Shown here in pieces: positions 1 to 58,613 of a stretch of DNA of 64,000 nt; the stretch's first letter is position 1; each line of letters starts with the position of its first letter. Below the pieces are notes generated by a model that ran no database searches, was not told the origin of the DNA, and was given only the letters and a program-made list of their open reading frames with translations. Source of the stretch: a virus; the IMG/VR virus record IMGVR_UViG_3300042453_001967, positions 1 to 64,000 of that record. The stretch is one strand, 5' to 3'. The translations under genes were made by a program, and so were the position numbers.

Positions 1-240
1 TTGGTGTGATAGATGGTGTTATAGATGGAGTAACAGAAGGTGTAACAGAACTAGTTGGTGTAATAGATGGTGTTACAGATGGTGTTCTTGATGGAGTCAC
101 CGATGGTGTAACAGAACTAGTTGGTGTGATAGATGGTGTTATAGATGGAGTAACAGAAGGTGTAACAGAACTAGTTGGTGTAATAGATGGTGTTACAGAT
201 GGTGTTCTTGATGGAGTCACCGATGGTGTAACAGAACTAG
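1..240. repeat. Perfect 120-bp tandem duplication inside the TPS-repeat gene
   Basis: Bases 1-120 are identical to bases 121-240, including all third codon positions. Each copy encodes about 40 residues of TPSVTPS/TPTSSVTP-type sequence. Divergence begins just after base 240. The array may continue beyond the left edge. Confidence 0.9.
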
Positions 241-1309
241 TTGGTGTAATGGATGGTGTAGGTGTACTTGAAGGTGTGGGTGATGGAAGTCTAGTATAAT
301 CAATATCACAAGAAGGTGCGGGTGTAACAGAAACAGTTGGTGTTACAGATGGTGTGAGTGATGGTGTGAGTGATGGTGTTAAAGAACTAGTTGGTGTGAC
401 AGATGGTGTAATAGATGGTGTTAAAGATGGTGTTAAAGAACTAGTTAGTGTAATAGATGGGGTGACCGAAGGTGTTCTTGATGGAGTCACCGATGGTGTT
501 AAAGAACTAGTTGGTGTAATGGATGGAGTCACCGAAGGTGTTCTTGATGGAGTGACAGAAGGTGTCAAAGAAGATGTGACAGAAGGTGTTAAGGAACTAG
601 TTGGTGTTACAGATGGTGTAACCGAAGGTGTTCTTGATGGAGTCACCGATGGTGTTAAAGAACTAGTCGGTGTAATGGATGGAGTCACCGAAGGTGTGAC
701 CGAAGGTGTAACTGATGGTGTTAAAGAAGGTGTAACTGATGGTGTTACAGAACTAGTTGGTGTAATGGATGGAGTCACCGAAGGTGTGACCGAAGGTGTA
801 ACTGATGGTGTTAAAGAAGATGTAACAGACGGTGTCAAAGAACTAGTTGGTGTAATGGATGGAGTCACCGATGGTGTTACCGATGGAGTGACAGAAGGTG
901 TTAAAGAACTAGTTGGTGTAATGGATGGTGTTAAGGAACTAGTTGGTGTAATTGTTGGGTTAAAACTTGGTGATGGTGTTATAGACGGTGTTTTGGTTGG
1001 TGTTGGTGTTTTGCACGGTGTCTCTGATGGTGTTGGTGTTATGGATGGTGTTATGGATGGTGTTGATGTTATAGACGGTGTTATGGATGGTGTTGGTGTT
1101 ACCGAAGGAGTTGGACATGAAATTTGAACATAACAAGTTTTATCTTCTAATGGAAAATACACACTATAAGTCCCCAAATAATAATCAGTATCATAATAAT
1201 ATGGCATGACAACGGTACCAATATTTATGGTACCGCCACTACAAGGATAAAAAGTTAAAACACCTGTTTGACCCTTAAAGTTACCTGTGTTTATTTTTAT
1301 TAACGCCAT
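1..1309 (-). CDS. Thr-Pro-Ser repeat adhesin/fibre protein, partial (C-terminus off the left edge)
   Basis: The frame opens at an ATG at 1307-1309 (minus strand) and stays open to base 1, so about 436 residues are present and the end is missing. Residues 1-65 form a small beta-rich module with the pattern FYPCSGGTINIG then MPYYYDTDYYLGTYSVYFP. The same module starts the proteins at 56862-58613 and 58623-60854. From about residue 65 the protein is low-complexity TPSxTP repeat ([21 protein letters not shown]), a likely extended, possibly glycosylated linker. Bases 1-120 and 121-240 are an exact tandem duplication. The gene lies 69 bp downstream of the 1794-residue repeat protein, same strand. 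It is probably a tail fibre or decoration protein; the function is inferred from context and repeats only. Confidence 0.75.
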   Translation of the reverse strand, partial: MALIKINTGNFKGQTGVLTFYPCSGGTINIGTVVMPYYYDTDYYLGTYSVYFPLEDKTCYVQISCPTPSVTPTPSITPSITSTPSITPSITPTPSETPCKTPTPTKTPSITPSPSFNPTITPTSSLTPSITPTSSLTPSVTPSVTPSVTPSITPTSSLTPSVTSSLTPSVTPSVTPSVTPSITPTSSVTPSVTPSLTPSVTPSVTPSVTPSITPTSSLTPSVTPSRTPSVTPSVTPTSSLTPSVTSSLTPSVTPSRTPSVTPSITPTSSLTPSVTPSRTPSVTPSITLTSSLTPSLTPSITPSVTPTSSLTPSLTPSLTPSVTPTVSVTPAPSCDIDYTRLPSPTPSSTPTPSITPTSSVTPSVTPSRTPSVTPSITPTSSVTPSVTPSITPSITPTSSVTPSVTPSRTPSVTPSITPTSSVTPSVTPSITPSITP

Positions 1310-1378: not shown

Positions 1379-4300
1379 TTAACATTGGTTTCCGCATTGT
1401 GATTGTTGTGTTACATTTGGTGCCGGATTTGGACTTGGATAAAACGTGATTGTACCGGGTCTGGCACATATTGTATCACTCGAACCATTAGATACACTAA
1501 ATGCAGATAAAGTGCCATTACACTGGATGTAAGAAACCTCATTTCCACCTGTTCCTTCAATTAAATAAAAATAACAAGGTGGACAACTCGGTGTTGGTGT
1601 TAATGATGGGGTTAAGGAATTAGTTGGTGTTAATGATGGGGTTAAGGAATTAGTTGGTGTAATGGATGGGGTGACCGAAGGTGTTAAAGAATTAGTTGGT
1701 GTTACAGATGGTGTTACAGATGGTGTTCTTGATGGAGTCACCGATGGTGTAACAGAACTAGTTGATGTTACAGATGGTGTTCTTGATGGAGTCACCGATG
1801 GTGTAACAGAACTAGTTGATGTTACAGATGGTGTTCTTGATGGAGTCACCGATGGTGTAACAGAACTAGTTGATGTTACAGATGGTGTAGTCGAAGGTGT
1901 TGACTGCGGTGTTAAAGAACTAGTTGGTGTTACAGATGGTGTTACTGAAGGTGTTCTTGATGGAGTCACCGATGGTGTAACAGAACTAGTTGATGTTACA
2001 GATGGTGTTCTTGATGGAGTCACCGATGGTGTAACAGAACTAGTTGATGTTACAGATGGTGTAGTCGAAGGTGTTGACTGCGGTGTTAAAGAACTAGTTG
2101 GTGTTACAGATGGAGTCACCGATGGTGTTCTTGATGGGGTCACCGATGGTGTTAAAGAACTAGTTGGTGTTACAGATGGTGTTCTTGATGGAGTCACCGA
2201 TGGTGTAACAGAACTAGTTGATGTTACAGATGGTGTAGTAGAAGGTGTTGACTGCGGTGTTAAAGAACTAGTTGGTGTTACAGATGGTGTAGTAGAAGGT
2301 GTTCTTGATGGAGTCACCGATGGTGTTAAAGAACTAGTTGGTGTTACAGATGGTGTAGTAGAAGGTGTTGACTGCGGTGTTAAAGAACTAGTTGGTGTTA
2401 CAGATGGAGTCACCGATGGTGTTTTTGTTGGCGTTGGTGTAGTCGAAGGTGTTTTTGTTAGTGTTGGTGTAATAGAAGGTGTTTTTGTTGGTGTTGGTGT
2501 AATAGAAGGTGTTGGTGGTGGAGAAGGACAAAAAACGTCATTTAATAATTCAAAATCGGTTGGTACGTCCGGACACCACTCATCGTCGACATAATATTGA
2601 CCCAAATCAAATCCAAGACCAGGGTGGTTTTCATATTTATGTCCAAGTAAAAGTTGTTCATCTACGTTGCCGTTAAAAACAACTAACAGTGTATCGTTAT
2701 ATGGTCCGCAATCAGTTTCAAGATTTAAATTAAAATACAGATTAGGATTACAGTAATCCAAATCGACATCTATAACTTCAATTGGGAATCCGTATTGGTT
2801 TATCAAATAATCACCATGATTATATAATTCTTTTGGATGATTACAACATGGTTCAATAAAATCCGAAGGTTTTATTTGCAATTCTTCCGGAAATCTAAAA
2901 TCAAAGAAATAACGACCATTTTCAGGAACACCAAAATTCTCAACAGACTTGTTTGTATAAACCCTAAGTTGTGTAGTTGGAAGAACTTCAAAAACCTCAT
3001 AATCATTATTTTGAGTCAATCCTGTTATTAAGTTACTCCTAACAGAACCTAAACATTCGATACTTGTTATTTGTACTTTTCTATATCCATATGTGAAAGA
3101 AAATCCTGACATCATTCCATCTAAAATATTCTGATGTGAATATGTTGTACATGGTCTAACTTCAGCTGATAAAATATAATCACCAACGGATAAATTACAT
3201 ACATTTACTTTTGTGATTGTCCCCCCACTAATAAAAGATTGTACGTCTTGATATGTCGTACTATCATCTATTGTTAATGAATTATCGATTTTTAAAGCAA
3301 TTGAATCACATTTTAAACCATAATCAAAATTCGTTTTATATTCTAATTTTGGTTGAATTGTATATCCCGTGTAATTGTCACAAAAGACGACTTCAGAATA
3401 TGATGAAATTGGGTTTCCAGATGTACCTTGATAACTAACAATTTCAAAAATTTCCGTGTGTGTTTTACCACTAGGTTCGGGACACGGGTCATGTTCAAAT
3501 TTTGGTTGTAACCCCAAAATTTTAAATTTAACCTCTTTATTTGCTGAATCAATAACATTAAAATTTATAACATCATTTTCGGAAACACCCGTTAATTTGT
3601 ATATACAATCACTAACCTTTTCGATATGAACGTCAGCATTTTCATTTGTTCCACTTATACAATTTGCATAAAAATAAAATGACCAATCGGTCCCTTCTTG
3701 TACACCCGTCTTATAACCAATTAATTCAATAAATAAATCGGAAACTAAAGTACAACCAGTTGGGGTTTCACAATATACGGTACCGTCACCGTATACATGT
3801 GCACTCATTAAATTACTATTCTTGTTAACACTATAATCCGTTTCAAATCTATAATCAAAATATTCAGAAACAGAACAATCATTTGGTCCTAATTTTACGG
3901 AAGAAAATCTGACCTTTTCGACACCATTTACATCGGTAAATGTTTCCCATTTTATTAATGGAATTGTTTCAGAATAATATGTTTGTCCTGTTGTACCTGT
4001 AAATGGGGAATATGGTTCGTATCCTGCACTATTTCGAGTAATCGTAATATCTGAAATTAATTCACTTAAAGCATCTAACCACAATTCTTTGATTTTATCA
4101 ACATCGGGTTCTAAATAATCTTTATAATCACAAATCAATGATAAATTGATTGGGTCGTTACTTGTAACACCACTAGTACAACCAGTTAAAGGTTGTAAAT
4201 CAAATAATTTCGCGCTATTTGAAGTGTTGGTTGTCCCACTTAAAACAACGTACATATTTGAAGTTAATCCACTATAATCGGCCCCACCATATATCACTCC

Positions 4301-6763
4301 GTCTATTTCAATTATCGGATAAAAAGTAACTCCCGTCAATCTTAATAAAGACCTAAAATTAATTTCTTCTCCTAATATGTTTTCTAAATCTTCTTCGATA
4401 TATGTTTCAAAATCGGGATATAATTCTTCAATAAATTGAAGGGGTTGACAATCATAAACATATGGATATTTTGGTCTTCCGAATACATTATTTTCAATTA
4501 AATTACCACCTGTCCAAAGTGTGGACGCTGGTACCAATTGTTCAATTAATTGAACCCAATATGGTGAAATTTTATCAACAAATTCTGTTACAGTAATTTG
4601 GTGATATGGTGTAAAACCCGTGGTTTGTGAAAGATAATCACGATACACATCTTCCAATTGAATATAATTCTTTTTGTATCGAATTTTATTTGAATTCTTT
4701 ACAAGATTATGAATAAATGTATCTAAAAATTCAACAAACGTTTTTCCTGTTTGTGTTGGTAAATTGTTGTTTGTTCCAAAAGAAATTTCCAATTCTTTAC
4801 TACGTCTAAAGACATCGTAATCAATAGCTCTAGCCGGTGAAATATATATCTCGATGTTTTTTCTATTTAGAATTAAATCTGAATTATCTTCTTTAAGTCT
4901 AGCTTTGGTGTTATCTATGTCGGAAACCAAATCATATCCTGTATCTAAACCTGGTAATGTTCTAAAAACATTAAAATAGTCTTCACCATAGGTGTATGGT
5001 TTATTTTTTGTGATAATTGTTTTTGTTCTACCAGTTAAAACGGAGTTTGTGGTATCCAATATTAAAGGTGAACGGTGTGATAACGTTATATCGTACCATC
5101 CCGCACCTTTTTCAAAGAAAACATCTTCAGTTTCACTGTACGCTCTTCTTGGTAACCCATTAATTTCATTAACGGGATACCCATCTCTATCAAACGAAGT
5201 TGTTCCTGTGTAAGTTTTCTTTTCATATGTATAACCAGTAACGTTTAAAACCGCAAAAGTGTATGTTTTATTTCCTTGAATTGCCTCATAAATGTCTTCT
5301 TCTAAATCAAAACTCGCGGGTAATGATGTAACTTGATAGATATATTCATTAATTTTTATTAATGGTTCAGGTGCACCAAGAAATTTTAAAAAAAACTCTA
5401 AAGCCTTTCTTGTTCCTTTTGATTTGTATATCTCAATAAGATTAACTAAAAGTCTTCTATAAAACTCATATTCTGCTTCGACTAAATTTGTACCGGTAGA
5501 AATACCTGCATACGTTGTGTTTATTCTCGTATAAAGAACATCTTCTAATTTTTTTTCATCAAATAAATTTGTGGTTGATAGTCCAAGGTTTTCAGATAAA
5601 TTTTTTAATAATACATCAGGTAAATTATTAATCGAATCATAACTCACATTTCTCATGTAAGCAATATTATCGATATATTTTTTTACACTATCAAAACTCT
5701 GTCCATATAATTGAAAAACACTTTCCGCTCTTTTATCTTCCGTATCAAACTCAAATAACTGAGGAGAAGATAAAAATCGAACCATTAAATTTGATTTATA
5801 ATCATCAATCTCGTTTGCAATATCACTTAATCTTGTTACGTAAAGTTCATAATCTATACCGGTAATTTGAATGTTATACCCATCATTTGATAAAGGCCAT
5901 GATGTTGTTACACTTACTAAAGAGGTTTTTGAGTTATTTTGACTATCTCTAGGTACTCTAAAACTTGACGTATATATGGGATTTGTTTCTCTATTTAATA
6001 ATGATTGTTCTAAATCATCAAGACCTGAGAAAAATTCTTCTATGAGTCCATCATTTGGTCTAATTAAAACATTACCTAAATAAGTAGAACCGGTAAACGG
6101 TTGACCATAAACTTTAAATTGAATAACATTATCAACATTTGGTTCCGTATATTCAAGAATTGGGTATGTGACATTGTTAACAACAATAACATATTTGGTA
6201 TATGATGAATAAAAATTCCTTAATTCATTTTCTGTTTCAGGTTTTATTACTGAATTTGGTTCAATAAGTACCAAATCAAATGGGTTGAAGAATTTACTTC
6301 TTTCAGTATAAAATATTGTTGTGTGAGCACTGTCGTCGTATGTTGAACCCGACACACTGTATGGTGAACTACTTATCGGACTATCAGCAACAATATTAAT
6401 AGCGCCAGGAAATTTATTAATAATTCTCGTTAGAGAAACTAAAATACGGCTAGATAAGGAACCAAATAATGATTTATCCGCATATTTTTTATTCGATTTA
6501 AAACTAACCTCATTGGTTTTTTTTGTTTTTGTTCTTGTTGTGGTTTGAATACCATCAACTTGTTTTATCGAATCTAAAGTTAAAAATTCTGAAAATGGTG
6601 TTGTTGAAAAACTCTTTGAATCTCTTTGGGGTATCACTTTATCCAAAGAGAAAACCGTGTTGGTTAAGGAAGATGTTCCATCCGTTATTTGTCTACCAAC
6701 TAAAAAATCATTAAATGTTTCCGCACCGCTCGCAGCTTGACTTGGTACTTTTCTTTTTGCCAT
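1379..6763 (-). CDS. Giant baseplate/tail protein with P2 gpI-like motif and long TPSVTP repeat tail
   Basis: The protein has 1794 residues. Around residues 431-463 the run YRRLLVNLIEIYKSKGTRKA followed by LEFFLKFLG resembles the conserved core of P2 gpI/TIGR02242-type phage tail proteins (helix, then KGT, then a short helix ending in LG). This supports a baseplate role. Residues about 1416-1724 are [20 protein letters not shown] repeats built at DNA level from 54-bp and related units. The last 70 residues form a cysteine-containing cap starting CPPCYFYLIEG and ending in CGNQC. The gene abuts its upstream neighbour (start and stop share base 6763), so it is co-transcribed with the baseplate genes. 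Likely role: a baseplate wedge or fibre-attachment protein whose repeat stalk displays the C-terminal cap. The tail assignment is good, the precise role unknown. Confidence 0.72.
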   Translation of the reverse strand: MAKRKVPSQAASGAETFNDFLVGRQITDGTSSLTNTVFSLDKVIPQRDSKSFSTTPFSEFLTLDSIKQVDGIQTTTRTKTKKTNEVSFKSNKKYADKSLFGSLSSRILVSLTRIINKFPGAINIVADSPISSSPYSVSGSTYDDSAHTTIFYTERSKFFNPFDLVLIEPNSVIKPETENELRNFYSSYTKYVIVVNNVTYPILEYTEPNVDNVIQFKVYGQPFTGSTYLGNVLIRPNDGLIEEFFSGLDDLEQSLLNRETNPIYTSSFRVPRDSQNNSKTSLVSVTTSWPLSNDGYNIQITGIDYELYVTRLSDIANEIDDYKSNLMVRFLSSPQLFEFDTEDKRAESVFQLYGQSFDSVKKYIDNIAYMRNVSYDSINNLPDVLLKNLSENLGLSTTNLFDEKKLEDVLYTRINTTYAGISTGTNLVEAEYEFYRRLLVNLIEIYKSKGTRKALEFFLKFLGAPEPLIKINEYIYQVTSLPASFDLEEDIYEAIQGNKTYTFAVLNVTGYTYEKKTYTGTTSFDRDGYPVNEINGLPRRAYSETEDVFFEKGAGWYDITLSHRSPLILDTTNSVLTGRTKTIITKNKPYTYGEDYFNVFRTLPGLDTGYDLVSDIDNTKARLKEDNSDLILNRKNIEIYISPARAIDYDVFRRSKELEISFGTNNNLPTQTGKTFVEFLDTFIHNLVKNSNKIRYKKNYIQLEDVYRDYLSQTTGFTPYHQITVTEFVDKISPYWVQLIEQLVPASTLWTGGNLIENNVFGRPKYPYVYDCQPLQFIEELYPDFETYIEEDLENILGEEINFRSLLRLTGVTFYPIIEIDGVIYGGADYSGLTSNMYVVLSGTTNTSNSAKLFDLQPLTGCTSGVTSNDPINLSLICDYKDYLEPDVDKIKELWLDALSELISDITITRNSAGYEPYSPFTGTTGQTYYSETIPLIKWETFTDVNGVEKVRFSSVKLGPNDCSVSEYFDYRFETDYSVNKNSNLMSAHVYGDGTVYCETPTGCTLVSDLFIELIGYKTGVQEGTDWSFYFYANCISGTNENADVHIEKVSDCIYKLTGVSENDVINFNVIDSANKEVKFKILGLQPKFEHDPCPEPSGKTHTEIFEIVSYQGTSGNPISSYSEVVFCDNYTGYTIQPKLEYKTNFDYGLKCDSIALKIDNSLTIDDSTTYQDVQSFISGGTITKVNVCNLSVGDYILSAEVRPCTTYSHQNILDGMMSGFSFTYGYRKVQITSIECLGSVRSNLITGLTQNNDYEVFEVLPTTQLRVYTNKSVENFGVPENGRYFFDFRFPEELQIKPSDFIEPCCNHPKELYNHGDYLINQYGFPIEVIDVDLDYCNPNLYFNLNLETDCGPYNDTLLVVFNGNVDEQLLLGHKYENHPGLGFDLGQYYVDDEWCPDVPTDFELLNDVFCPSPPPTPSITPTPTKTPSITPTLTKTPSTTPTPTKTPSVTPSVTPTSSLTPQSTPSTTPSVTPTSSLTPSVTPSRTPSTTPSVTPTSSLTPQSTPSTTPSVTSTSSVTPSVTPSRTPSVTPTSSLTPSVTPSRTPSVTPSVTPTSSLTPQSTPSTTPSVTSTSSVTPSVTPSRTPSVTSTSSVTPSVTPSRTPSVTPSVTPTSSLTPQSTPSTTPSVTSTSSVTPSVTPSRTPSVTSTSSVTPSVTPSRTPSVTSTSSVTPSVTPSRTPSVTPSVTPTNSLTPSVTPSITPTNSLTPSLTPTNSLTPSLTPTPSCPPCYFYLIEGTGGNEVSYIQCNGTLSAFSVSNGSSDTICARPGTITFYPSPNPAPNVTQQSQCGNQC
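1590..2515. repeat. Thr-Pro-Ser codon repeat array (54-bp and related units)
   Basis: Degenerate and partly identical tandem units encode TPSVTPS, TPTSSLTPQSTPSTTP and TSTSSVTP. A 54-bp unit is repeated back to back around 1725-1880 and again around 1980-2060. Segments such as ggagtcaccgatggtgtaac are shared with the array at 1-1115, so the two genes carry homologous DNA. Confidence 0.85.
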
Positions 6764-9711: not shown

Positions 9712-11465
9712 TTAAAACTTTCTATATTTTTAATTAAATCTTGTTTGTTTCTGTATATGTTCTCATTTCTTAAATAGAAATCAATATCACTTTTTACATA
9801 ATGAATACCATTAATAAATGAAAAATTTGTACCTAAACCGTCCGAGTCAATAAACCCATGGTCATATAAATCTCTCCATTTCCACAACCCATCGTTTTGA
9901 AAATATTTTGCGTTTTGTGGTAATCCGTATATTTGATTAGTCGTTGATGTTTCGATATATGGTGAAAGTTGTCTTAATTTAACCCTATGATGTGGTTGAT
10001 AAAACAAACCAAATTTGTTTGTTGCAGATGCACCAGAAAAGGTGACAGTTGACCCTGTTTGACCATAATCAAAAACAAAAAGAGGGTTTGAGAATCTATG
10101 GTATGCTTCACTAATAATCCTTTCCTTTAGTTCGGAAACATTATATTCAACAAAGGCACCATGTAATATAGTGTTAATGGGAACATCAGTACCACCGGTA
10201 AAATTGTATGTTACCGAATTTATTGTTTTAGTAAATGCAGTTGTTGGAATTGAAGTTTCAATAGTTGTTGAGCCGTCAAAATGTTGGTCAACCCATGTGT
10301 CATGGAAATTAAATTTCCATCCAACTTTTGGTGGATAATCAAAATACCCATTTCTATTTGATAATAATGTTGTTACATAAATTTCAGTTGGTAAATATTT
10401 TAAATTATTTGTTAAACCTGTTAAAATAAATGGTTCTTTAAAATCGTAAATTAAAGACTCCATCATATTTCTTTCCACCAAATAATCACTAATACCTTCA
10501 CTATTTTCTAATAATAATTTTTTTTCATTTTCCCAAATGGATGATTCAAAACCCGCTTTATCCAAAATATAATCACCTCTTTCTGTAAGTGTTTTATGTT
10601 TGTGAACATAATATGTGGACGTTGTTCCAGTTAAATTATCTCTATCAATACACCTCTTACCAAACACAACAGTTGACAATGTTGTACCCGAAGGTAATTC
10701 AGATTTTGAAATGTCTAAAACAAATTTTTCGGACCTAAAAATAGAATCTCCAACAGAAATAACAGAAAATGTCCTACCACTCACACTAACTGAACTATTT
10801 AAAGTCCCCCCACTAATTGTTATATATTCACCAGCCAATATTCCGTGTTCAACGGGACTTGTCAATTTATATGTTCTACCATTATCTTCAACTCTAAACG
10901 GTATTCCGTCTCCTGAAACAAAATTAAACACAGTATTACCACTTAAAGTATATTTCATCGGATAAGTTGTATCATGGTCATAAACATAAGACAAATGAAT
11001 ATTCCAATTATGATATGGTGCCATTATACTCGATATTGAAACGTGACTTGACTCCCCACTGTAAGATATTGATGGGGTATATGTGGTTATTGAAGAAAGT
11101 GTTTGTACTGAATTAGATTGTCTTAACACATCTTTTCTAAGAAAAGCAAATTCGTTGTATGGTATAAATCCATCAAAATTATTGTCTCCACCATCACCAA
11201 CCAAATACAAATTCTTTAAAAGTGGTTCATAGTCGGTGTCACCACTATACAAATTTCTGAAAACCATTTTTAGTTTTCCGTGTATTTTGTAAGAACTACT
11301 TTCGTTTCTTTCTTTATTAAATAATTCAACATTATTTAATATGACGTTTCTATCCCCTTCTCTTAAAAGGTTTTGTGTTTCATCCAATCCAATTCTAATA
11401 TTTTGGTCAACATTTGTTGAACCAAAAAATTTTTTAGATGGTAATATTATTTTTTTCTTATCCAT
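9705..11465 (-). CDS. Putative tail structural protein, unknown family
   Basis: The protein has 586 residues and starts MDKKKIILPSKKFFGSTNVD. It has many GTT/SGT/TSGTT segments typical of beta-rich phage fibre or baseplate proteins, and an aromatic-rich C-terminal third (LPQNAKYFQNDGLWKWRDLY). No catalytic motif is visible. Start and stop overlap those of its neighbours, indicating a single operon with the other baseplate genes. Its size and place next to the 1534-residue protein suggest a peripheral baseplate or fibre-anchoring role; this is inference. Confidence 0.55.
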   Translation of the reverse strand: MDKKKIILPSKKFFGSTNVDQNIRIGLDETQNLLREGDRNVILNNVELFNKERNESSSYKIHGKLKMVFRNLYSGDTDYEPLLKNLYLVGDGGDNNFDGFIPYNEFAFLRKDVLRQSNSVQTLSSITTYTPSISYSGESSHVSISSIMAPYHNWNIHLSYVYDHDTTYPMKYTLSGNTVFNFVSGDGIPFRVEDNGRTYKLTSPVEHGILAGEYITISGGTLNSSVSVSGRTFSVISVGDSIFRSEKFVLDISKSELPSGTTLSTVVFGKRCIDRDNLTGTTSTYYVHKHKTLTERGDYILDKAGFESSIWENEKKLLLENSEGISDYLVERNMMESLIYDFKEPFILTGLTNNLKYLPTEIYVTTLLSNRNGYFDYPPKVGWKFNFHDTWVDQHFDGSTTIETSIPTTAFTKTINSVTYNFTGGTDVPINTILHGAFVEYNVSELKERIISEAYHRFSNPLFVFDYGQTGSTVTFSGASATNKFGLFYQPHHRVKLRQLSPYIETSTTNQIYGLPQNAKYFQNDGLWKWRDLYDHGFIDSDGLGTNFSFINGIHYVKSDIDFYLRNENIYRNKQDLIKNIESFKC

Positions 11466-14400
11466 TATTCAGATGTTGGAAACGCTCCTTTAGGTCCAAA
11501 TAGTTGAACAAACTTATCTACCGCGGTTTTACCTGGTCTAATTCCAAAATAAAATAAAAATGGTGTGGATAATATTTGTAAATTACCCGTATAATTTTTT
11601 AATGTTGGTTTTAATATGTAATCAATATTGGTGTTCCACGATTGAGAATCCCATACACCAATACTACCTTTTCTAACCCATAAAGTACCCGCTAATGGAG
11701 TTTGAGTTGTTCCCGAAGTAATATGTAACACAGTAAACCCTTCTTCTTGATTATCGTATTGTAAATGAACATCAGTTGTGTCCTCAACATCAAATGAACC
11801 ATCGTTTACATCTGCACCAACTATATTAAAGGTGTTACCGGAATAATCCTTTGTCATTGGAAACAAAACATAATTGTATGTTGTGTCACCCGTAAACGTA
11901 TAACTAAATGTCATTCCCTGTAGTCTATGTGTCCTTATGGTGTTGTAATCCCACGATTGATTATAACCTTCCCCAAAACCTTGTCCTTGTTTGTCCCAAT
12001 AAAAAAACGGAACAATCTGTGATGATTCAGTCAACCTACCAGGTTCATTTAAACAAACCCTCACTCTATAACCATCATCATCCAAAACAAAATTTATTGG
12101 TATAGGTCCATTTGATGTTCCGGCTTGTGAACTAAATAATTGAGGATATGTGTCAGGGTCTAAAATTAATGGACTATATTGTCCGTAATATCTATTTTGT
12201 AAATCAAATTCTTCAACACCAACTTCGTTGTTTATTGATATTAATTGTAAAACGTCTCCATTTAATATTTCTTTTGTTGTATTAAATGGGAGATACGAAT
12301 TAAATCCATTATTTTGAAAAAAATCTCTATATTCAAATGTGTTATTAGTATCTAATCTATAGTTAATGTAAAGCCCGAAAATTTCCTTAAAGTTTTGAAA
12401 AGATGTTGGTCCAATACTTCGAACAACCGAACAATTAGGGTCTAAAGATGGGTCGACACATATTTCTTTTATAAATTCATCTCTTGGTCCCAAATCCATA
12501 ATTGTTGTTGGGTGTCTTAGTGTACTGAATGTTGTTCCGTTACTTACTGTAGATTGAAAAGACGAACCATCCCACTTAGTGGACCTATAATAAAACCTTT
12601 TAACGGGTTCGCCAGATGTTTTTTCACTTACCTTATAATACAATAAATCCTCACAATAATTTGTTCCTCTAACGTTCAAATCTAATGTTTCCTCATTATC
12701 CCATCTAACCCTTGCTTTAAAGGCAAACAGATAAAGAGAACCACCTAACCAATTTTCAATAAATGAATAATTTACAACACCTTCACAAAAAACTTTATTG
12801 ATTAGTTTTCTTCTAGCATATTCTCTAATTAATTTAAAATTGTATTCCCAATTATTTATAGACGCAGCCGGTATTATTGTATAAGTCCCTTTTCTAAATT
12901 CAGAAAAACCACTTCTAGTACTACACGTCGAACAAGGATTGCTATTCGTATTATATGATATTTGTCCAACAGGTAACAGACTTGTACACGATGTTCCGTT
13001 TTGAACCGTGACTAAAGCTGTATTGTTATAATCATCATTAATATTTGAGGCACAATACGTTTGTTTAACAATCGTTTCGTCATATATTGTGTTCTGTGTA
13101 TCGCAACCTAAAGACAAATCACCGGTAGAACCTGTTAAAGATTGTTGAGTTAGTTTAAGAGAAGAATCATATATTTCATAAGTGAACCCTGTCCATTGAA
13201 AATCACTTAAAGAAGAATTACCAACACTATCACCACTTATTGAACTATAACAACAAGAATTGGTTACTGACGATGGTCCAGAACAACCTATAGAATAATT
13301 CATACAACTTGATGTTGAAATATAAGATGTTAAATTACCATAAGACTCAATATCAGATATATCAACACGCAATACATACCACTTATTGTTTACCGGTGTT
13401 GGTATATCATAAACACCATAGGAACATTCACCTAATGTCGCATCACCAATAGATATTCTTACATTAGATAATGCAGTGTTACCGGAGGGTATTGAATAAT
13501 AAAAGGCAACCATATAGGATAATCCTCTAGTTATCGTTCCCGCACTTTTTGTTACTGCATTTGACCAATCAATTGATAATGTCATAGTACTAGGGTCGTC
13601 TAATATTGTTTCAATATTTCCGCCACATGTTCTTATACTAGAGTGATAATATAAAACGTAATCATATACTGTTGTACAAATACCATCAGTAAACGTAATA
13701 CTTGATGAAGTATTTTGTGAAGAAGTTGGGTCGGTACAATCACACGTTCCGTTTGGGGTTTGTCCAGACGCACAAGCCGGTTGAGAAAAAGGTGTTACAT
13801 ATAAGTCACTAATGGACCATCGACCTTCAAAACAACTATTTGTTGGACACGGGGATGGATAATCATATTGTGGGGGTATTCCATTATTACCTAATCGATA
13901 CACTAACCAACCAAAATTATTATTATCATATCCCCTATAACCGGATTGAGTAGTGGGTGAACCACAAGAAAATTGGTCAATTGTTAACTGTGAATATGTG
14001 TTTACCTCTAAACTATTTAATCTATTAAGTTCATATGCATTTGCACTTCCATGTGGTAAATAACTTTTTAAAACAATATAATACGTTTTACCACTAATTG
14101 GTAAATTACTCGCACTATATATTAGGTCCAATGATTCACCAGTCGAATTACCGTTACAAGTTATTCCCGTAAAATTATAAGTGGGTAACGTTGAGCCACT
14201 TGAAGACATAATGAACTCGTCAATTGTATTATCGGGGTCACATATTGGTGAATATGGAGAACCATTAATATTTAAAGTATCTCTAACCGCAACCCCTTCC
14301 CCGACTTTACAATATAGTTCATCAGGTCTTTGAGTTGGAATAAGTATCTGTTCACTTGAAAAATCTTCACAAGTTTCACACTCAGGATAAACAACAATTG

Positions 14401-16069
14401 ATAAATTAACAGTACCAAATCGTTGTAATGGTTCAATAACTAATGAATCAAAAACTTCAAAAGGTCTCCAGTCAATAATGGTTGAACCAAACGCCCTAAT
14501 ATATATTCTAATACTATAAAGAAATTGAAACGGAATTATTAATACTTGTATTGCGCCAATAAATGCTCCGTATATTATTCTTTCAAATATACTAATTACA
14601 GTTGCTAACAATATTGGAAAACTAAATCGTCTCCATCCATAATTAATTGGTGGTGTCACTATACTTGATTCACAGTCTTCTTCCTCTTTTGGTGATATGT
14701 CTTTTATACCAACATAATTGTCTTTACCACCTTTAAAATGACTCCCCATATACGAACTTACCGTATATACTTTATTATATGTAAACCTAAAAAAATAATC
14801 TTCAGGATAATAACTACCGTATGTTTGATTAAAAATCACAGAGTTTGTTGTAGAACCAGTTGGATAATCGTTCCAATCTAAAGAAAAAGCGTAAGAACCA
14901 TCAACGTCAGAATCATATTCTCGTATATTTGGTAACAAATAACTACCAGTAAATCTAACTCTACCTAGTGTATTGTTTTTACCTGAAATTCTAAATCTAT
15001 AACACGCTGATGTTGGTATACCTTTATTTGGGTCATTTGTAATTTCTGTTTCACCAAATTCGTTTGTGTACTGATATTCCATGTTCATGGGTAACGGAAT
15101 CACAAACGAACCGTCTTCGTCTATATCTTCTTCTATTTGATACGTCTCTAATATTGGTCTACCCAATGAATCTTTTAAAGAAGTAAATCTTATCATTTCA
15201 ATCTCCGCAGCAAAAGTTGTTAAATCACACTTTCTACCCATAGCACTTCTTGGTCGACAATTTTTGTTTAACGTGTTTTTACCTTGGTCAGAATATATTG
15301 AACCCAATAAATATGCTTTGGGTTCCACTTTTACCCCTTGACTTGATAAATCAAAATCTGTTCTTGTTATTCCAATTTCACATAAATCTTCATTTCCCCA
15401 AAAAGGAAAAACTTCAATTGTTTGATTAAAAGATACTATTTGAGGTAATGAATCTAAATCATCAGATGATTTATATGAATATGTATTTTTAAAACTATCA
15501 ACACCTCTACCTTGTCTTATAAAATCATCGGGTCTCAATGAAAAACAACCAATATCAGATAAATCAACATCAACATGTATGATTTGTGTACCAACAGGTA
15601 CACCCCATATCATAAAATCACCAGCATCATTTGTTTTTACGGTATACTTATAATATTTTTCATAAACTTCTAAAATCTCTTCTCTTGTTAAAATATCTAA
15701 TTGGTCAGGAAAAGTTCCTGTTGGTTCGTGTCCACCGTGTTGTTTTCTACTTGGAAGTAAGTTGTATCGATAACCGTTTTCATTTCTATCGGTTACAGAT
15801 GTATATGGGTACAATGAGGATATTACCGGGTCGTTCACATCATCATCTAAAATGGGTATAAAAATAGAAACTCTAGCATTTGGTACACCAAAACCATTGT
15901 TTACGAATATTCTACCACATACAACCCCATAATCAGAACACATGGAAGTATATGCTTCTGTCTGTGTAAATTTTAAAGACAATATCTCTAAAAGGTCGAA
16001 ATCATTTTTTAATTCAACGACAACCTTTTGGTCTCTCCCAATGTTTGTAGAAATTCTATGTTTTTGCAT
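11465..16069 (-). CDS. Giant baseplate-associated protein with CarboxypepD-reg-like domain, hydrophobic segment and Cys-rich module
   Basis: The protein has 1534 residues. Near residues 45-175 the pattern VCGRIFVNNGFGVPNARVSI, later followed by TNDAGDFMIWGVPVGTQIIH, matches a carboxypeptidase-regulatory-like beta-sandwich. Residues about 481-520 are strongly hydrophobic (FPILLATVISIF, then GAFIGAIQVLIIPFQFL), unusual in a soluble tail protein. Residues about 836-950 are a Cys-rich module also found in the 743-residue repeat protein at 58623-60854 (shared NKWYVLRVDISDIESYGN versus [18 protein letters not shown]). A late motif precedes the ATG. It is the first gene after the gp6-like wedge gene, so a baseplate-periphery or fibre-attachment role is likely. 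The hydrophobic segment might contact the host envelope; that is speculation. Confidence 0.65.
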   Translation of the reverse strand: MQKHRISTNIGRDQKVVVELKNDFDLLEILSLKFTQTEAYTSMCSDYGVVCGRIFVNNGFGVPNARVSIFIPILDDDVNDPVISSLYPYTSVTDRNENGYRYNLLPSRKQHGGHEPTGTFPDQLDILTREEILEVYEKYYKYTVKTNDAGDFMIWGVPVGTQIIHVDVDLSDIGCFSLRPDDFIRQGRGVDSFKNTYSYKSSDDLDSLPQIVSFNQTIEVFPFWGNEDLCEIGITRTDFDLSSQGVKVEPKAYLLGSIYSDQGKNTLNKNCRPRSAMGRKCDLTTFAAEIEMIRFTSLKDSLGRPILETYQIEEDIDEDGSFVIPLPMNMEYQYTNEFGETEITNDPNKGIPTSACYRFRISGKNNTLGRVRFTGSYLLPNIREYDSDVDGSYAFSLDWNDYPTGSTTNSVIFNQTYGSYYPEDYFFRFTYNKVYTVSSYMGSHFKGGKDNYVGIKDISPKEEEDCESSIVTPPINYGWRRFSFPILLATVISIFERIIYGAFIGAIQVLIIPFQFLYSIRIYIRAFGSTIIDWRPFEVFDSLVIEPLQRFGTVNLSIVVYPECETCEDFSSEQILIPTQRPDELYCKVGEGVAVRDTLNINGSPYSPICDPDNTIDEFIMSSSGSTLPTYNFTGITCNGNSTGESLDLIYSASNLPISGKTYYIVLKSYLPHGSANAYELNRLNSLEVNTYSQLTIDQFSCGSPTTQSGYRGYDNNNFGWLVYRLGNNGIPPQYDYPSPCPTNSCFEGRWSISDLYVTPFSQPACASGQTPNGTCDCTDPTSSQNTSSSITFTDGICTTVYDYVLYYHSSIRTCGGNIETILDDPSTMTLSIDWSNAVTKSAGTITRGLSYMVAFYYSIPSGNTALSNVRISIGDATLGECSYGVYDIPTPVNNKWYVLRVDISDIESYGNLTSYISTSSCMNYSIGCSGPSSVTNSCCYSSISGDSVGNSSLSDFQWTGFTYEIYDSSLKLTQQSLTGSTGDLSLGCDTQNTIYDETIVKQTYCASNINDDYNNTALVTVQNGTSCTSLLPVGQISYNTNSNPCSTCSTRSGFSEFRKGTYTIIPAASINNWEYNFKLIREYARRKLINKVFCEGVVNYSFIENWLGGSLYLFAFKARVRWDNEETLDLNVRGTNYCEDLLYYKVSEKTSGEPVKRFYYRSTKWDGSSFQSTVSNGTTFSTLRHPTTIMDLGPRDEFIKEICVDPSLDPNCSVVRSIGPTSFQNFKEIFGLYINYRLDTNNTFEYRDFFQNNGFNSYLPFNTTKEILNGDVLQLISINNEVGVEEFDLQNRYYGQYSPLILDPDTYPQLFSSQAGTSNGPIPINFVLDDDGYRVRVCLNEPGRLTESSQIVPFFYWDKQGQGFGEGYNQSWDYNTIRTHRLQGMTFSYTFTGDTTYNYVLFPMTKDYSGNTFNIVGADVNDGSFDVEDTTDVHLQYDNQEEGFTVLHITSGTTQTPLAGTLWVRKGSIGVWDSQSWNTNIDYILKPTLKNYTGNLQILSTPFLFYFGIRPGKTAVDKFVQLFGPKGAFPTSE

Positions 16070-18942: not shown

Positions 18943-21900
18943 TTATGAACCACATCCTTCACATTCAAATGGTGAATCATTTGGTTTAATTGATAAAACC
19001 ATTTCTTCAACATAATTACTTGTTAAGTTTGATTCTTTAACATTACTTATTTGATTTTCAACATTTGGTTTAGAAGTTGTTATATCAATACCCAACCCTT
19101 TAATTGGGTCAACAGCAGCCTTAGTTCTAAGATAGTACATTCCGGTTTTTAAACCAAGTTTCCACCCGTATAAATGAGCCGCCATAACTTTTGTTTTATT
19201 TGCGTTATCAATAAATAAATTTAATGACTGAGATTGGTCGATATAAATTGACCTATTTGCCGCCATTGTTAGAATTCTTTTTTGTGACATTTCCCAAACT
19301 GTCTTATAAATTTCTTTTACATCAACAGGTATCTCGGGTATGTTTTGAACCGAACCGTTTTCCATTATTAATTTTTTCTTTATTTCATCAGACCACAAAC
19401 CTCTTTCCAACAATTCATTAACCAAATGTTTATTGATTACAATAAATTCACCACCCAATGTTCTTCTTGAATAGAGATTAGAAGTAAAAGGTTCAAAGGC
19501 TTCGTTGTTACCTAAAATTTGAGCGGTAGATGCTGTTGGCATAGGTGCAACTAATAAAGAGTTTCTTACACCATATTTGACAACATCTTTTCTTAGCGAT
19601 TTCCAATCCCATCTTCCACTTGTGTCCTTGTCTGTTTTACCCCATAACTCGTATTGGAATTGACCCTTAGATAATGGGGAACCATCAAATGAAGAGTATG
19701 CACCATTTTCAATAGCCAAGTCTTTAGACGATGTGAGAGCAGCGAAATAAATTGTTTCAAATATTTCTACTTGTAATTTGTCTGCATCCTCACTTTCAAA
19801 AGGTAATTTTAACATACAAAATACATCTGCCAATCCTTGAACACCTAAACCAACTGGTCTGTGTTTCATGTTTGAAAGTTTTGTTTCCTCAGTAGGATAA
19901 AAATTTAAATCAATAACGTTGTTTAGGTTTTTTACAACTTGATACACATATTCATATAGTAAATCGTGATTAAATTCTTTGTTGACTACGTATTTTGGTA
20001 AAGCAATTGATGCTAAATTACAAACCGCTTGTTCTTCTGGAGAAGAAAATTCTAGAATTTCAGTGCAATTAAATGTTTTTAATCCTTGTGAAATAAAAAT
20101 ATGTTCATCATTATAAATTGTTGGACAATAAACATCTTCTTTACCCACATATTCTATGGATTTTACTTTATATCCCTTTTTCGTATTATCCCGAAATTCA
20201 CGATTGTCAATGATTATGTTTTTTCTATCAAGAAACCCTATTTTTTCATTTATTTTTTGTGAGTCATTTTTATTACCAACAATTAATCTATAACAATCTT
20301 TTGTTTTGTATAGTGAATATCCACCTTTACCATTTGGTAATGACCGTTGACCTCCATTTCTTAACAATCTAATAGATGTTTGAAGACCTAAATTTTGAAA
20401 AATTAATTGAAGCTCTTTTAAAAAATCAATATTTATGTCGGCATAACTTATTTGTGTTGGCTCCCCTTTTGATTTATTTTTATTAGCTGTTCCATCAGCA
20501 AATAATAAACCCCGCAAATAAGACCATTGCGTTTCTTCATTTGAAGACCAAATCCATTCGGGTACATATCCCTTTTCAAAGAGTAATTCTTTTTTAAAAA
20601 ATTCACTAGATAATCTTTTTTTCTTTACTTTAGAAAATGAAACAACACAATCTATAAATTTACAACCTTTAGTTGAATATCTAGGTTTATACTCGTATTT
20701 TGAATATAATTTTTGAATTTTGTTTTCAATCTCTTCAACTAAATCAAAATCATTTTCCCATAAATCAAATAAAATTGATGATTTGTTTTGTGTACCATCT
20801 GATTGATATAAACCCAATAAAAAGGCCTCATCTACCATTTCTTTTGAACCAAACAATCCTTTATTAGTTTGTACTGCTATTTTATCACCTATTTTTAAAT
20901 CCTTACATTCAATACGTGTTATATTATTTCTTGAGTCAATTACAGGTATTCCATGATATGGTGTTACTTTATGTTCCATACCATTTTCTAATGTTATTTT
21001 ATAAACATCTTCATTTTCACCTCGTTTAATCATTTTGGATGATTTGACAATTTCAGAACCATTAAAAAGTTCTAATTCCACATCCATTTCACACAATTCT
21101 TTGGCTGTTAAGTAACCCTTTGTTGTCACCACTCTTTGGTCACCTGTTATACACAAATTAGATGATTTAATTGTACCTAAGTTCTTTTGGTTTGACTTGT
21201 AATTAGCAGCATCTTTATATAACATATAAGGTACCCCCGTTTCAATTTGTGCGGTCAAAATGGCATCCATTAATTTTCTAGCTTTTACGACTTTTCTTGC
21301 CTTACCTTCCTTCTCATATCTTTCATAAAGTTCAGTAAAATCTTGTGTAAATTTGTATGGGTCATCATATACGTCAGATAATCCAGGCGCCTCATCTGGT
21401 GAAAATAATGACCATTCTAAATCTTGTTCTACTCTTTTCATAAATAAGTCAGGGACCCACATCGCTAAAAACAAATCTCTGGCCCTTAATTCTTCTTTTC
21501 CATGGTTTTTTCTTAATTCAATAAACTCAAATACATCTGAGTGCCATGGTTCAAGATAAACAGCGAATGAACCGCGGCGGCGACCCCCTTGGTTAATCCA
21601 ACGAGCAACTTCATTATATGTTTTCATCATTGGTAACAAACCATCTGATTCTCCACCAGTACCTTTGATATACGCACCTTTACCTCTTACATCATGAACA
21701 TGTAAACCAATACCACCAGCCCATTTAGATATCTTCGCAACATCTTTTATTGTGTCAAATAAACCATCAATGTCATCACCTTTATTACCAATCAAGAAAC
21801 AGGACGACATTTGTGGTCTGTGTGTTCCTGCGTTAAATAAAGTAGGTGTTGCGTGTGTGTAATAATGTTGTGATAAATCATCATAAATTCTTAAAGCGGT

Positions 21901-22452
21901 CTCTATGTCATTATTACAAATACCAACAGCAACTCTCATGTACATGTATTGTGGTCTTTCAACAATACGATTACCAATCTTTAGTAGATATGAACGTTCT
22001 AATGTTTTAAACCCAAAATAATCAAAATCAAAATCTCTTTCTTGAATAATCGCACCATCTAAAACATCCTTATATTGTTGAACAAAATTATAGGTTTCAT
22101 TTGAAATTAATGAAGATTCCTTATTTGTTTTCGGTTCAACAAATGAATGTAATTCCTTGATTGAATGTGAGAATTTTTTTGGTGTAGTTTTATGTAAATT
22201 AGATACTGCCAATCTACCGGCTAATTTTGCGTAATCTGAGTGAGAGGTGACAAGAGATGCAGCGGTTTCTGCTGCTAAAATATCTAACTCTGTTGTTGAT
22301 ATACCGTCATAAATACCTTGTGTCACTTTAAGGGTTATCAATGTTGGGTCAACATATTCAAGATTTAAATCATCGCAAAAATTTTGAATTCTTCTTGTAA
22401 TTTTGTCATATCTCATTTCTTCCAATGAGCCATCTCTTTTTTTAACTTTCAT
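18943..22452 (-). CDS. nrdA: Ribonucleoside-diphosphate reductase large subunit (class I) containing an intein
   Basis: The precursor has 1169 residues; removing the 362-residue intein leaves about 807, a normal NrdA length. An ATP-cone-like N-terminus (KKRDGSLEEMRYDKITRRIQ) precedes the catalytic barrel. Conserved parts include MSSCFLIGN (Cys218, first redox cysteine), SSNL-C (radical cysteine, at the intein site), AVCNLASIAL (second redox cysteine) and the C-terminal CEGC pair for thioredoxin- or glutaredoxin-type re-reduction. It reduces ribonucleoside diphosphates to deoxyribonucleotides together with NrdB, encoded 11 bp upstream. A strong terminator follows. Phages use this enzyme to feed genome replication. 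Activity depends on intein splicing because the intein sits at the catalytic cysteine. Confidence 0.95.
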   Translation of the reverse strand: MKVKKRDGSLEEMRYDKITRRIQNFCDDLNLEYVDPTLITLKVTQGIYDGISTTELDILAAETAASLVTSHSDYAKLAGRLAVSNLHKTTPKKFSHSIKELHSFVEPKTNKESSLISNETYNFVQQYKDVLDGAIIQERDFDFDYFGFKTLERSYLLKIGNRIVERPQYMYMRVAVGICNNDIETALRIYDDLSQHYYTHATPTLFNAGTHRPQMSSCFLIGNKGDDIDGLFDTIKDVAKISKWAGGIGLHVHDVRGKGAYIKGTGGESDGLLPMMKTYNEVARWINQGGRRRGSFAVYLEPWHSDVFEFIELRKNHGKEELRARDLFLAMWVPDLFMKRVEQDLEWSLFSPDEAPGLSDVYDDPYKFTQDFTELYERYEKEGKARKVVKARKLMDAILTAQIETGVPYMLYKDAANYKSNQKNLGTIKSSNLCITGDQRVVTTKGYLTAKELCEMDVELELFNGSEIVKSSKMIKRGENEDVYKITLENGMEHKVTPYHGIPVIDSRNNITRIECKDLKIGDKIAVQTNKGLFGSKEMVDEAFLLGLYQSDGTQNKSSILFDLWENDFDLVEEIENKIQKLYSKYEYKPRYSTKGCKFIDCVVSFSKVKKKRLSSEFFKKELLFEKGYVPEWIWSSNEETQWSYLRGLLFADGTANKNKSKGEPTQISYADINIDFLKELQLIFQNLGLQTSIRLLRNGGQRSLPNGKGGYSLYKTKDCYRLIVGNKNDSQKINEKIGFLDRKNIIIDNREFRDNTKKGYKVKSIEYVGKEDVYCPTIYNDEHIFISQGLKTFNCTEILEFSSPEEQAVCNLASIALPKYVVNKEFNHDLLYEYVYQVVKNLNNVIDLNFYPTEETKLSNMKHRPVGLGVQGLADVFCMLKLPFESEDADKLQVEIFETIYFAALTSSKDLAIENGAYSSFDGSPLSKGQFQYELWGKTDKDTSGRWDWKSLRKDVVKYGVRNSLLVAPMPTASTAQILGNNEAFEPFTSNLYSRRTLGGEFIVINKHLVNELLERGLWSDEIKKKLIMENGSVQNIPEIPVDVKEIYKTVWEMSQKRILTMAANRSIYIDQSQSLNLFIDNANKTKVMAAHLYGWKLGLKTGMYYLRTKAAVDPIKGLGIDITTSKPNVENQISNVKESNLTSNYVEEMVLSIKPNDSPFECEGCGS
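20068..21153 (-). mobile_element. Intein with LAGLIDADG homing endonuclease inserted at the NrdA radical cysteine
   Basis: The intein comprises residues 434-795 of the precursor (362 aa). It begins with Cys434 (CITGDQRVVTTKGYL). Block B has T497-x-x-H500 (HKVTPYHG). Two LAGLIDADG-like motifs with their acidic residues are at FLLGLYQSDG (544-553) and LRGLLFADGT (646-655). It ends GLKTFN followed by extein Cys796 (CTEILEF). Rejoining gives SSNL-CTEI, the normal NrdA sequence around the thiyl-radical cysteine (E. coli C439). The penultimate residue is Phe, not the usual His. The endonuclease motifs look intact, so it may still be mobile. Confidence 0.93.
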
Positions 22453-28331: not shown

Positions 28332-28408
28332 TGGTAGGAGAAGCGGGACTCGAACCCACAACCTCGTGCTCCCAAAGCACGTAATCTAACCAATTGATAT
28401 ATTCCCCT
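28332..28408 (-). tRNA. tRNA-Pro (anticodon UGG), CCA encoded
   Basis: It is a cloverleaf of 77 nt: acceptor AGGGGAA with TTCTCCT, anticodon stem CGTGC/GCACG, loop TTTGGGA giving anticodon TGG, T stem GTGGG/CCCGC with loop TTCGAGT, and the 3' CCA encoded at 28334-28332. It reads the CCA (and by wobble CCG) proline codons that dominate the TPS-repeat proteins. Confidence 0.93.
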
Positions 28409-28416
28409 ATAAAACG

Positions 28417-28490
28417 CGGTTCGTATGGGAATCGAACCCATGACCTTCGCAGTGACAGTGCGATATTGTAACCAACTCTACTAACGAACC
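28417..28490 (-). tRNA. tRNA-Asp (anticodon GUC)
   Basis: It is a 74-nt cloverleaf: acceptor GGTTCGT/ACGAACC, anticodon stem TCGCA/TGCGA, loop CTGTCAC giving anticodon GTC, T arm ATGGG-TTCGATT-CCCAT, discriminator G. CCA is not encoded. The D stem has one mismatch. It is separated from tRNA-Pro by 8 nt and probably co-transcribed with it. Confidence 0.9.
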
Positions 28491-44716: not shown

Positions 44717-44796
44717 CTAGTATTTATTATTTCTAGTTTTTATTATCTAGTATTTATTATTTCTAGTTTTTATTATCTAGTATTTATTATTTCTAG
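44717..44796. repeat. 30-bp tandem repeat, about 2.7 copies
   Basis: Units start at 44717, 44747 and 44777 (third partial) and each contains two CTAG tetramers and TATTTATTATTT. The array sits inside a flanking inverted repeat GCCCAGTATAT/ATATACTGGGC. Confidence 0.85.
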
Positions 44797-44855
44797 TCTA
44801 TTTAACATTTATTATCTACTAGTTTTATATACTGGTGTAATATACTGGGCAATTT

Positions 44856-56861: not shown

Positions 56862-58613
56862 TTACAAACCGTATTTTGATTTGGTTGAATTATAATTATT
56901 TGATATCTCTGTGGTGTTTAAACCTTTGGTATAGAAATAACATGCACCTATTTTACCATTCAAATATAGTGACGACACACCTGAACCAATCCATCCTAAA
57001 TAAAATGGATTTGTTTCACCATATGAATCAGCACCATGTGCTGTAGTTATATACTCAGTATTATTTATATAGACTTTTGTGGTATTGGCGGTTGAGGTTA
57101 TTTGTGAAATAAATGTAAACAAATACCAAGTATTTGTTGTGATTGTTAAAGTTGAAGTACTGATTTGTTGGACACCGGTACCATTTGTTACACATCTAAC
57201 AGTACCCGTATTTGAAAACAAACCACCCCAATAACCGTCAAATCCTGATGCACTTGACAACTTCCCAAATACGGGTATTTGTTGACCTGACGATGGTAGT
57301 GCGTCAAATTTAACCCAAACTTGCACGGTCTTTTGACCCGTTGTGGTTAAACTTAATTGAGATACGTGAGGAACACTAATGGTATCATTCGTTCCATCTA
57401 AATCAAAAATACCACCATCGGTTGATAACCAAGTCGCGCCATTTATTGTTGCGTTATTACCATTACCCGTTTCATCCGACCATGTACCACTCGTATAGTT
57501 TGTGGCATCTAATTTCATAAATAAACTATCTGTAACAAAATTAACAATAGAACTTGTTGATGGTGTTGGTGTTACTGACGGTGTTCTTGTTGGTGTTGGT
57601 GTATTTGTAACTGTAGGTGTAGGACTTACTGCTGGTGGTAAATAAGTTTGAGGAGTTTGGTACGTATTTCTAGTTGTTGTGGAATTAAATCCGCTTACCG
57701 TATGTAACAAACTCCAATTTACACCATCGTTACTTCCTGATATGGTCCAAGATTTTGGGTCTCTACTTTCTTCATCATTTGCGGTTCCCCATCTATACCC
57801 ATCAAACGACTGACCGGTTGGGAATTGAAATATAAAATTCGTTACATTACCATTAGTAACAAAATTTAAATCTAATGCTTTTGTTGTTAAACTACCGTCA
57901 ATTAATTTGGATGGTTCTTCACCCACAGGGTTATTTCCACTAGGGTTTGTTACCACAACACCGGACATACTTTGGTCTACACCATTTTTTTGAAAAACAA
58001 ATTCAGAAGATTGAACACAGTTTGCATTTGGTGGTGTTGTTTTAGATTCAGTTATTTGCCACCTATAATATATAAAAGATTGACCATAAGATGTTGATGT
58101 CGGTGTTAAAGTTGGTGTTGGTGTTACTGAACGAGTTGGTGTTATACTTGGTGTAATAGAAGGTGTTGGTGTTACTGATGGAGTTCTACTCGGTGTTATA
58201 GATGGTGTTCTTGATGGTGTTGGTGTTACTGATGGAGTTCTACTTGGTGTTATAGACGTAGTAATAGATGGTGTTGGTGTTACTGAACGAGTTGGTGTTA
58301 TACTTGGTGTAATAGAAGGTGTTGGTGTTGGGCTTGGTAAAGACTCTATTATAATTTTATAATAATTTTCTTGAAAAATATAATCACCATTTTCTTGTAA
58401 TAAGAAATTACCCGAAGTGTCTTCAACATACAAAGTACATGTACTACCAAAAGCAGGAAAGAATAAAGAATATGTCCCATAAAAATATGGAGCAACATAA
58501 TCATAGGGTAAAACTTGAGTACCAAGATTAATTGTCCCACCCGTGTCGGGATAAAACGTAATTACGGCCGATTGACCATTGTAGTTTGTTGAGACGATTC
58601 TTAAAGTATCCAT
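56862..58613 (-). CDS. TPS-repeat adhesin with F5/8-like and LamG-like domains
   Basis: The protein has 583 residues. It has a module shared with two other proteins (residues 1-70, [12 protein letters not shown] then [19 protein letters not shown]), a TPSITPTPS linker (about 89-176), an F5/8 discoidin-like domain (about 208-324, with [20 protein letters not shown] and GSNDGVNW), a second short TPS linker, and a C-terminal LamG/ConA-like jelly roll (about 360-583, with [20 protein letters not shown] and [20 protein letters not shown]). Such modules bind glycans on bacterial surfaces. It is therefore a likely receptor-binding or decoration protein. The genes on both sides share its strand and tight spacing. 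Confidence 0.72.

Follow-up and report, generated by a model that had tools for sequence, protein, structure and literature searches.

The long tail fibres of phage T4, gp34-gp37, have repeat shafts, and mucin-like Thr/Ser/Pro-rich domains carry variable-number tandem repeats. In a k-mer graph a tandem array longer than its period plus k forms a loop, and JGI assemblies are made with metaSPAdes at k up to 127. Repeats have been tied to the fragmentation of virome assemblies (excerpt of PMC6350398), and the section of PMC5923482 available on phage assembly describes SPAdes contigs with artificial 127-base overlaps at their ends. Papers that follow the JGI workflow name metaSPAdes in excerpts from which a k value is absent (PMC11237453, PMC9302107).

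The stretch of DNA analysed here, the window, covers bases 1-64,000 of a virus record 91,965 bases long and begins inside the truncated 5' part of a giant gene with a repeat tract. The giant gene shares with T4 gp34-gp37-type long fibres a position at the end of the tail/baseplate module, a long repeat body and distinct C-terminal domains, and its N-terminal domain is common to several proteins, as in the T4-type fibres. The giant protein differs from these fibres in its low-complexity (Thr/Ser)-X body, in matching no fibre entry in Pfam or PHROGs and in its length of up to 5,472 residues. Its tract resembles mucin-like Thr/Ser/Pro domains in composition, tandem repetition and resistance to short-read assembly, and differs from them in a strict two-residue register and an islet with a single Cys. 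No report of a comparable (Thr/Ser)-X phage protein was found in the literature searched, and no tail-fibre repeat variation was found in the portion of PMC4429339 available. Taken as a whole, the locus is probably best explained as a tandem array in the giant gene that was cut by assembly, with the visible copy number a lower bound and a virion tether as the likeliest role of the protein. The 120-base repeat at the start of the window is in itself ordinary and assembly-limited; the interest lies in the giant (Thr/Ser)-X gene behind it.

The terminal 120-base repeat and the contig end

The terminal tandem repeat (1-247, minus strand, period 120) is exact over 127 bases: bases 1-127 equal bases 121-247, and base 128 differs from base 248. 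Tandem Repeats Finder reported 1-259 with a period of 120, 2.2 copies and 98% matches. Because base 1 of the window is also base 1 of the record, the repeat is placed on the end of the assembly. The first-pass annotation had described bases 1-120 and 121-240 as identical down to silent positions, and as a coding unit of 40 codons whose gain or loss in whole codons would keep the frame. Both descriptions were borne out, the exact match running on to 127 bases. With the ORF bounded at base 2, exact repeats in the coding tract reach at most 126 bases, and shuffling gave maxima of 23 bases (200 codon-shuffled tracts) and 38 bases (200 tracts shuffled in 12-base blocks). Since the shuffled tracts never exceeded 38 bases against the 126 observed, the repetition is real and the doubt concerns only the count. 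The 120-base unit matched 28 places across the record at E <= 0.001, and its next-best copy within ORF 2-1309 was identical at 105/120 bases. The distal end of the record carries no comparable tract and gave no match to the repeat-bearing end. Neither the 120-base junction nor the neighbour upstream of it was found in IMG/VR with exact 40-base patterns, a search that may omit near-window records.

A de Bruijn assembly at k=127 that went once round a 120-base loop would print a terminal match of exactly 127 bases, and two copies would then be a lower bound. Bases 1-247 would be the last part that could be printed of a tandem array lying within the giant gene's repeat tract: the graph would form a 120-base loop at k=127, and the contig would have circled it once and halted at an already-used k-mer. 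The array would then span at least 247 bases (2.06 copies), with its true length and the remainder of the gene missing from the contig, and identity at silent sites would tell little of its age. This was modelled with a toy walk on random letters in which the loop was taken once and the walk stopped at the first used k-mer. The terminal match equalled k in every looping case (k = 55, 77, 99, 127 and 141; a 250-base array did not reach the length needed for a loop at k = 141), and under an alternative rule of stopping at the first branch the looping cases gave terminal matches of 0-125 bases, never 127. The repeat in the window has both marks of a de Bruijn contig-end repeat, contact with the end and a match length of 127. 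It is like the overlaps in the available section of PMC5923482 in being an exact 127-base repeat involving a contig end, and differs in that those overlaps connect both ends of a contig whereas here the terminal 127-mer recurs 120 bases inward at the same end only.

Two results count against a loop at k=127. The terminal 127-mer was repeated in none of 10 other in-tract contig ends that were tested, where the longest repeat within the contig's own locus was 9-59 bases. The same contig also crosses an interior exact repeat of 164 bases (1776/1950), and as this exceeds 127 the assembler was able to cross such a repeat once. Paired reads can carry an assembly across a repeat of this kind.

Related contigs served as a yardstick for assembly. 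A scan of IMG/VR with the N-terminal head domain of the giant protein returned 27 contigs, 13 of which end inside the tract (L011, L012, L013, L014, L016, L017, L018, L020, L021, L033, L034, L035 and L037), one of them (L012) with a frame break ahead of its end as well. Out-of-frame joins were present in four (L022, L027, L029 and L030), L015 has a frame break together with N bases, and L028 ends just beyond the tract. The remaining eight hold an intact gene with its stop codon, of 5,472 codons in six records and of 4,989 and 2,737 codons in one each. Giant repeat genes thus break short-read assemblies and are catalogued as short, truncated ORFs that miss their true size.

Sister-phage contigs also broke in this gene, several of them at a repeat of similar size. 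One exact repeat of 116 bases (gene 12628/12916) holds the ends of contigs L046 and L049 and the starts of L057 and L061, while the ends of L050, L051 and L065 lie outside it, and the joins in L040, L042, L044 and L048 lead back into the same region with the frame lost. Together these breaks and joins indicate that short-read assembly fails at about this repeat size in the giant gene. Apparent deletions in L040, L042 and L044 (253, 268 and 310 bases) and the differences in L048 (149 and 41 bases, with its join at the 116-base repeat) were considered as biological variation and rejected as they are out of frame. Between gene bases 12,600 and 13,400, three of these four contigs re-enter at the same base, as if an overlap had been left unmerged.

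The giant gene, its register and its relatives

The window holds 436 codons of the giant gene (2-1309, minus strand), in an ORF that is open at the contig end. The gene starts with a 64-residue head domain (1118-1309, minus strand) that is common to the 27 IMG/VR contigs and to two other window ORFs, at 47% and 39% identity. Both paralogues are on the minus strand. The one at 56862-58613 contains Thr/Pro tracts and matches F5/8 type C weakly, under the Pfam cut-off; the one at 58623-60854 contains several Thr/Pro tracts and has a Cys-containing domain at its C-terminus. An AlphaFold2 model of the head domain had six strands (mean pLDDT 73, pTM 0.55), and its fold matched nothing in PDB or BFVD at E <= 0.001. 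In the relatives the head domain is followed by a tract of about 2,000-4,700 residues, which ends at residue 4,805 in L038, 4,528 in L053 and 2,049 in L054, and then by small Cys-rich C-terminal domains spaced by short Thr/Pro linkers. The last of these domains has about 157-164 residues, and that of L038 is 30-34% identical to those of L053 and L054. A C-terminal model reached a pLDDT of 56, too poor for a fold search, and the L054 C-terminal piece found no match within the window's own record.

The relatives carry the giant gene in the same place, directly after the same neighbour gene, a homologue of ORF 1379-6763 lying just upstream at all 14 of the loci examined (of 27). Sheath and baseplate wedge genes are present in the window, and terminase, portal and major head protein genes in the record; judged by this gene content the phage is a myovirus. 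Placement in the tail/baseplate module with conserved synteny is a mark of fibre genes, and in this respect the earlier label of a fibre gene was a fair guess from position and architecture. No known fibre family backs it: ORF 2-1309, ORF 1379-6763 and three C-terminal pieces of L038 matched no named fibre, spike or adhesin family in Pfam or PHROGs. PHROG 15511, of unknown function, matched the tracts of four window proteins, and as the match runs mostly over low-complexity tract it does not establish homology. Searches against named phages gave no match for ORF 1379-6763, the head domain, the L038 C-terminal domain or ORF 11465-16069. The terminase matched 2,418 records, all below 60% identity, and the best among the matches listed were Flavobacterium immuto phages (28.5%) and Microcystis phage Mel-JY01 (28.8%). 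Two Dyadobacter genome matches (39% over 44 residues) were dropped, the protein having no Thr/Pro tract (L071).

The register of the tract was assessed from the spacing of its prolines. Across 14 tracts with hand-set bounds, 12 from giant genes and two from other window ORFs, 4,953 of the 4,960 Pro-Pro gaps were even and 7 were odd, as compared to 44% even gaps in a shuffled L038 tract. Thr or Ser occupied 96.8-100% of alternate sites (2,351/2,368 in L038 and 179/185 in the window). The Thr codons at these sites were mixed in L038 (ACA 779, ACT 740, ACC 646, ACG 131), and L053 likewise used all four; mixed codons with the residue kept are an indication of selection on the protein. Recombination between repeats would also keep the register passively. 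A two-residue period would suit a beta-like extended chain with its hydroxyls on one face. Should the (Thr/Ser)-X register be a structural rule, it would define a very long phage appendage amenable to testing, and the evolution of repeat length in phage stalks would become open to direct measurement with long reads.

Each of five near-complete tracts contains no Gly and one Cys. The window tract (371 residues) has two Cys, at 99 and 334. A single Gly, placed at an alternate site, occurs in each of the short tracts of L018 and L035. Cys 334 of the window lies in a conserved islet, PAPSCDIDYTRLPSPTP (272-322, minus strand), with the consensus PAPSCDIDYT(R/M)(L/I)PSPTP, and the islet supplies the only Cys of the five near-complete tracts. 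It was found at residue 334 in the window and at residues 612, 766, 840, 1,008 and 1,255 elsewhere. Eighteen of the 27 records and the window carry it, in six lineages, and the nine records in which it is absent are all contigs that end within the tract. Islet DNA shows synonymous differences between lineages. The core PAPSCDIDYT is conserved amid rewritten surroundings.

Changes of tract length and other readings of the repeat

The neighbouring upstream gene (1379-6763, minus strand, 1,794 codons) has a conserved N-terminal part of about 1,410 residues followed by a Thr/Ser/Pro tract of its own (1593-2517, minus strand). In this tract a 113-base repeat (1722-1834 = 1950-2062) accompanies the 164-base exact repeat. 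Global alignment of contig L011 to the window gave zero mismatches over 5,999 bases and one gap, an in-frame stretch of 228 bases (76 codons, an even number) of the neighbour's tract that L011 lacks and that is flanked by the 113-base direct repeat; the BLAST identity of 99.76% is an artefact of the alignment running past the gap. L011 stops short of the 120-base repeat. In L051 an in-frame stretch of 42 bases is missing where a 47-base direct repeat lies. An apparent second gap in L051, of 258 bases and also in frame, has 8-base homology and is 118 bases away from the contig end; it may or may not be biological. The L011 gap and the 42-base gap in L051 fit what recombination or slippage between direct repeats would leave. 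As L011 has no other difference from the window and the 164-base exact repeat lies at the site, its gap may instead be an assembly difference.

By this mechanism tract length would change in even numbers of residues, so that both frame and register are kept. The length of the giant gene differs between lineages, from 2,737 to 4,989 and 5,472 codons. Against easy change stand the six sister-phage records with a 5,472-codon gene, which are identical in DNA over 17,828-17,852 bases from the start codon, tract included, and are told apart by IMG numbers alone. Length change as proposed in the first-pass annotation accordingly holds in part; on the lengths and gaps compared here, it happens between lineages and perhaps within strains, and they lend no support to fast change or to an adjustment of host range. 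Except in the window, L011 and L012, no more than 468 bases separate the neighbour from the giant gene (stops left aside), and the long tract of the neighbour therefore looks specific to the window lineage. The neighbouring gene may have gained its Thr/Pro tract. A Thr/Pro tract in the neighbour ORF is apparently absent from the relatives except L011 and L012.

On the earlier interpretation the unit was genuinely and recently duplicated to give exactly two copies, as one step of a length-switching fibre-stalk locus that adjusts reach and host range. The identity of the two coding copies agrees with this, as do the in-frame stretches missing from L011, in the neighbouring tract, and from L051 at its direct repeat. 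Against this, the copy number is fixed by a contig end at exactly 127 bases, the six sister-phage records differ nowhere in the gene, and the L011 gap may come from assembly. We regard a recent duplication of this kind as quite unlikely, and a match whose length from the contig end is exactly 127 bases does not establish an exact duplication to two copies. An assembly artefact, named at the time as the outcome that would tell against duplication, applies to part of what was seen: the 127-base match at the contig end points to the assembler, while the repetition itself is real by the shuffles. The repeat was real and the gene of the right kind, and copy number and purpose were over-read. More generally, an exact repeat at a contig end is an unsafe basis for copy number or for recency since the assembler can set both.

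The assembler could also have made the period itself. A period-120 array would then be unreal, overlapping k-mers of separate tract segments, or of strain variants, having closed a false cycle. Near-copies of the unit are numerous in the tract (the 28 places noted above), and four sister-phage records contain demonstrably false joins that are out of frame. A false cycle would need support for every 128-base step round the 120-base circle, where the next-best copy within the gene matches at 105 of 120 bases, and the joined frame in the window remains open with its (Thr/Ser)-X register intact. We consider a false cycle very unlikely, and a real array cut at the contig end remains the preferred explanation.

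Possible roles of the giant protein and other features of the record

The likeliest role of the giant protein, as judged from its domain plan, would be that of a virion-anchored tether. The head domain would dock on the tail or baseplate, the C-terminal domains would bind something at the cell surface, and the tract between them would be a long polymer, either flexible or extended. A mucin-like polymer, possibly O-glycosylated, could alternatively act as a decoy or coat, either carried by the virion or shed from the cell, and its length would be under little selection. The tract does consist of Thr/Ser/Pro-rich tandem repeats as mucin-like domains do: Thr, Ser and Pro together account for 76% of its residues in the window, and Thr alone for 28-50% in the tracts of five relatives; charged residues are few and aromatic residues are almost absent. 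Conservation of the head domain, the islet and the Cys-rich C-terminal domains across lineages suggests in turn that both ends of the protein matter, and we regard the decoy or coat as unlikely.

A broader proposal built on the tether is that these genes encode a giant virion protein family (up to 5,472 residues) with a selected (Thr/Ser)-X body, a new kind of stalk in which the Cys islet may crosslink chains. We put this forward as rather doubtful. If true, a tract of 4,736 residues would measure about 1.5 micrometres when fully extended (about 0.33 nm per residue), far beyond the size of the particle, and the phage would fish for distant hosts.

Several features elsewhere in the record were also observed. 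An intein with a LAGLIDADG-like domain splits a ribonucleotide reductase large subunit gene (18943-22452, minus strand); both Pfam Intein_splicing and LAGLIDADG_3 scored above cut-off. In L010 an acidic ORF, located upstream of the major head gene, contains a 36-base tandem repeat (883-1018; 3.8 copies, 99% matches), and in the window a 30-base tandem repeat (44717-44797; 2.7 perfect copies) lies between the sheath gene and the next ORF. Two tRNA genes, for Pro (tgg) and Asp (gtc), are located at 28332-28490 on the minus strand.
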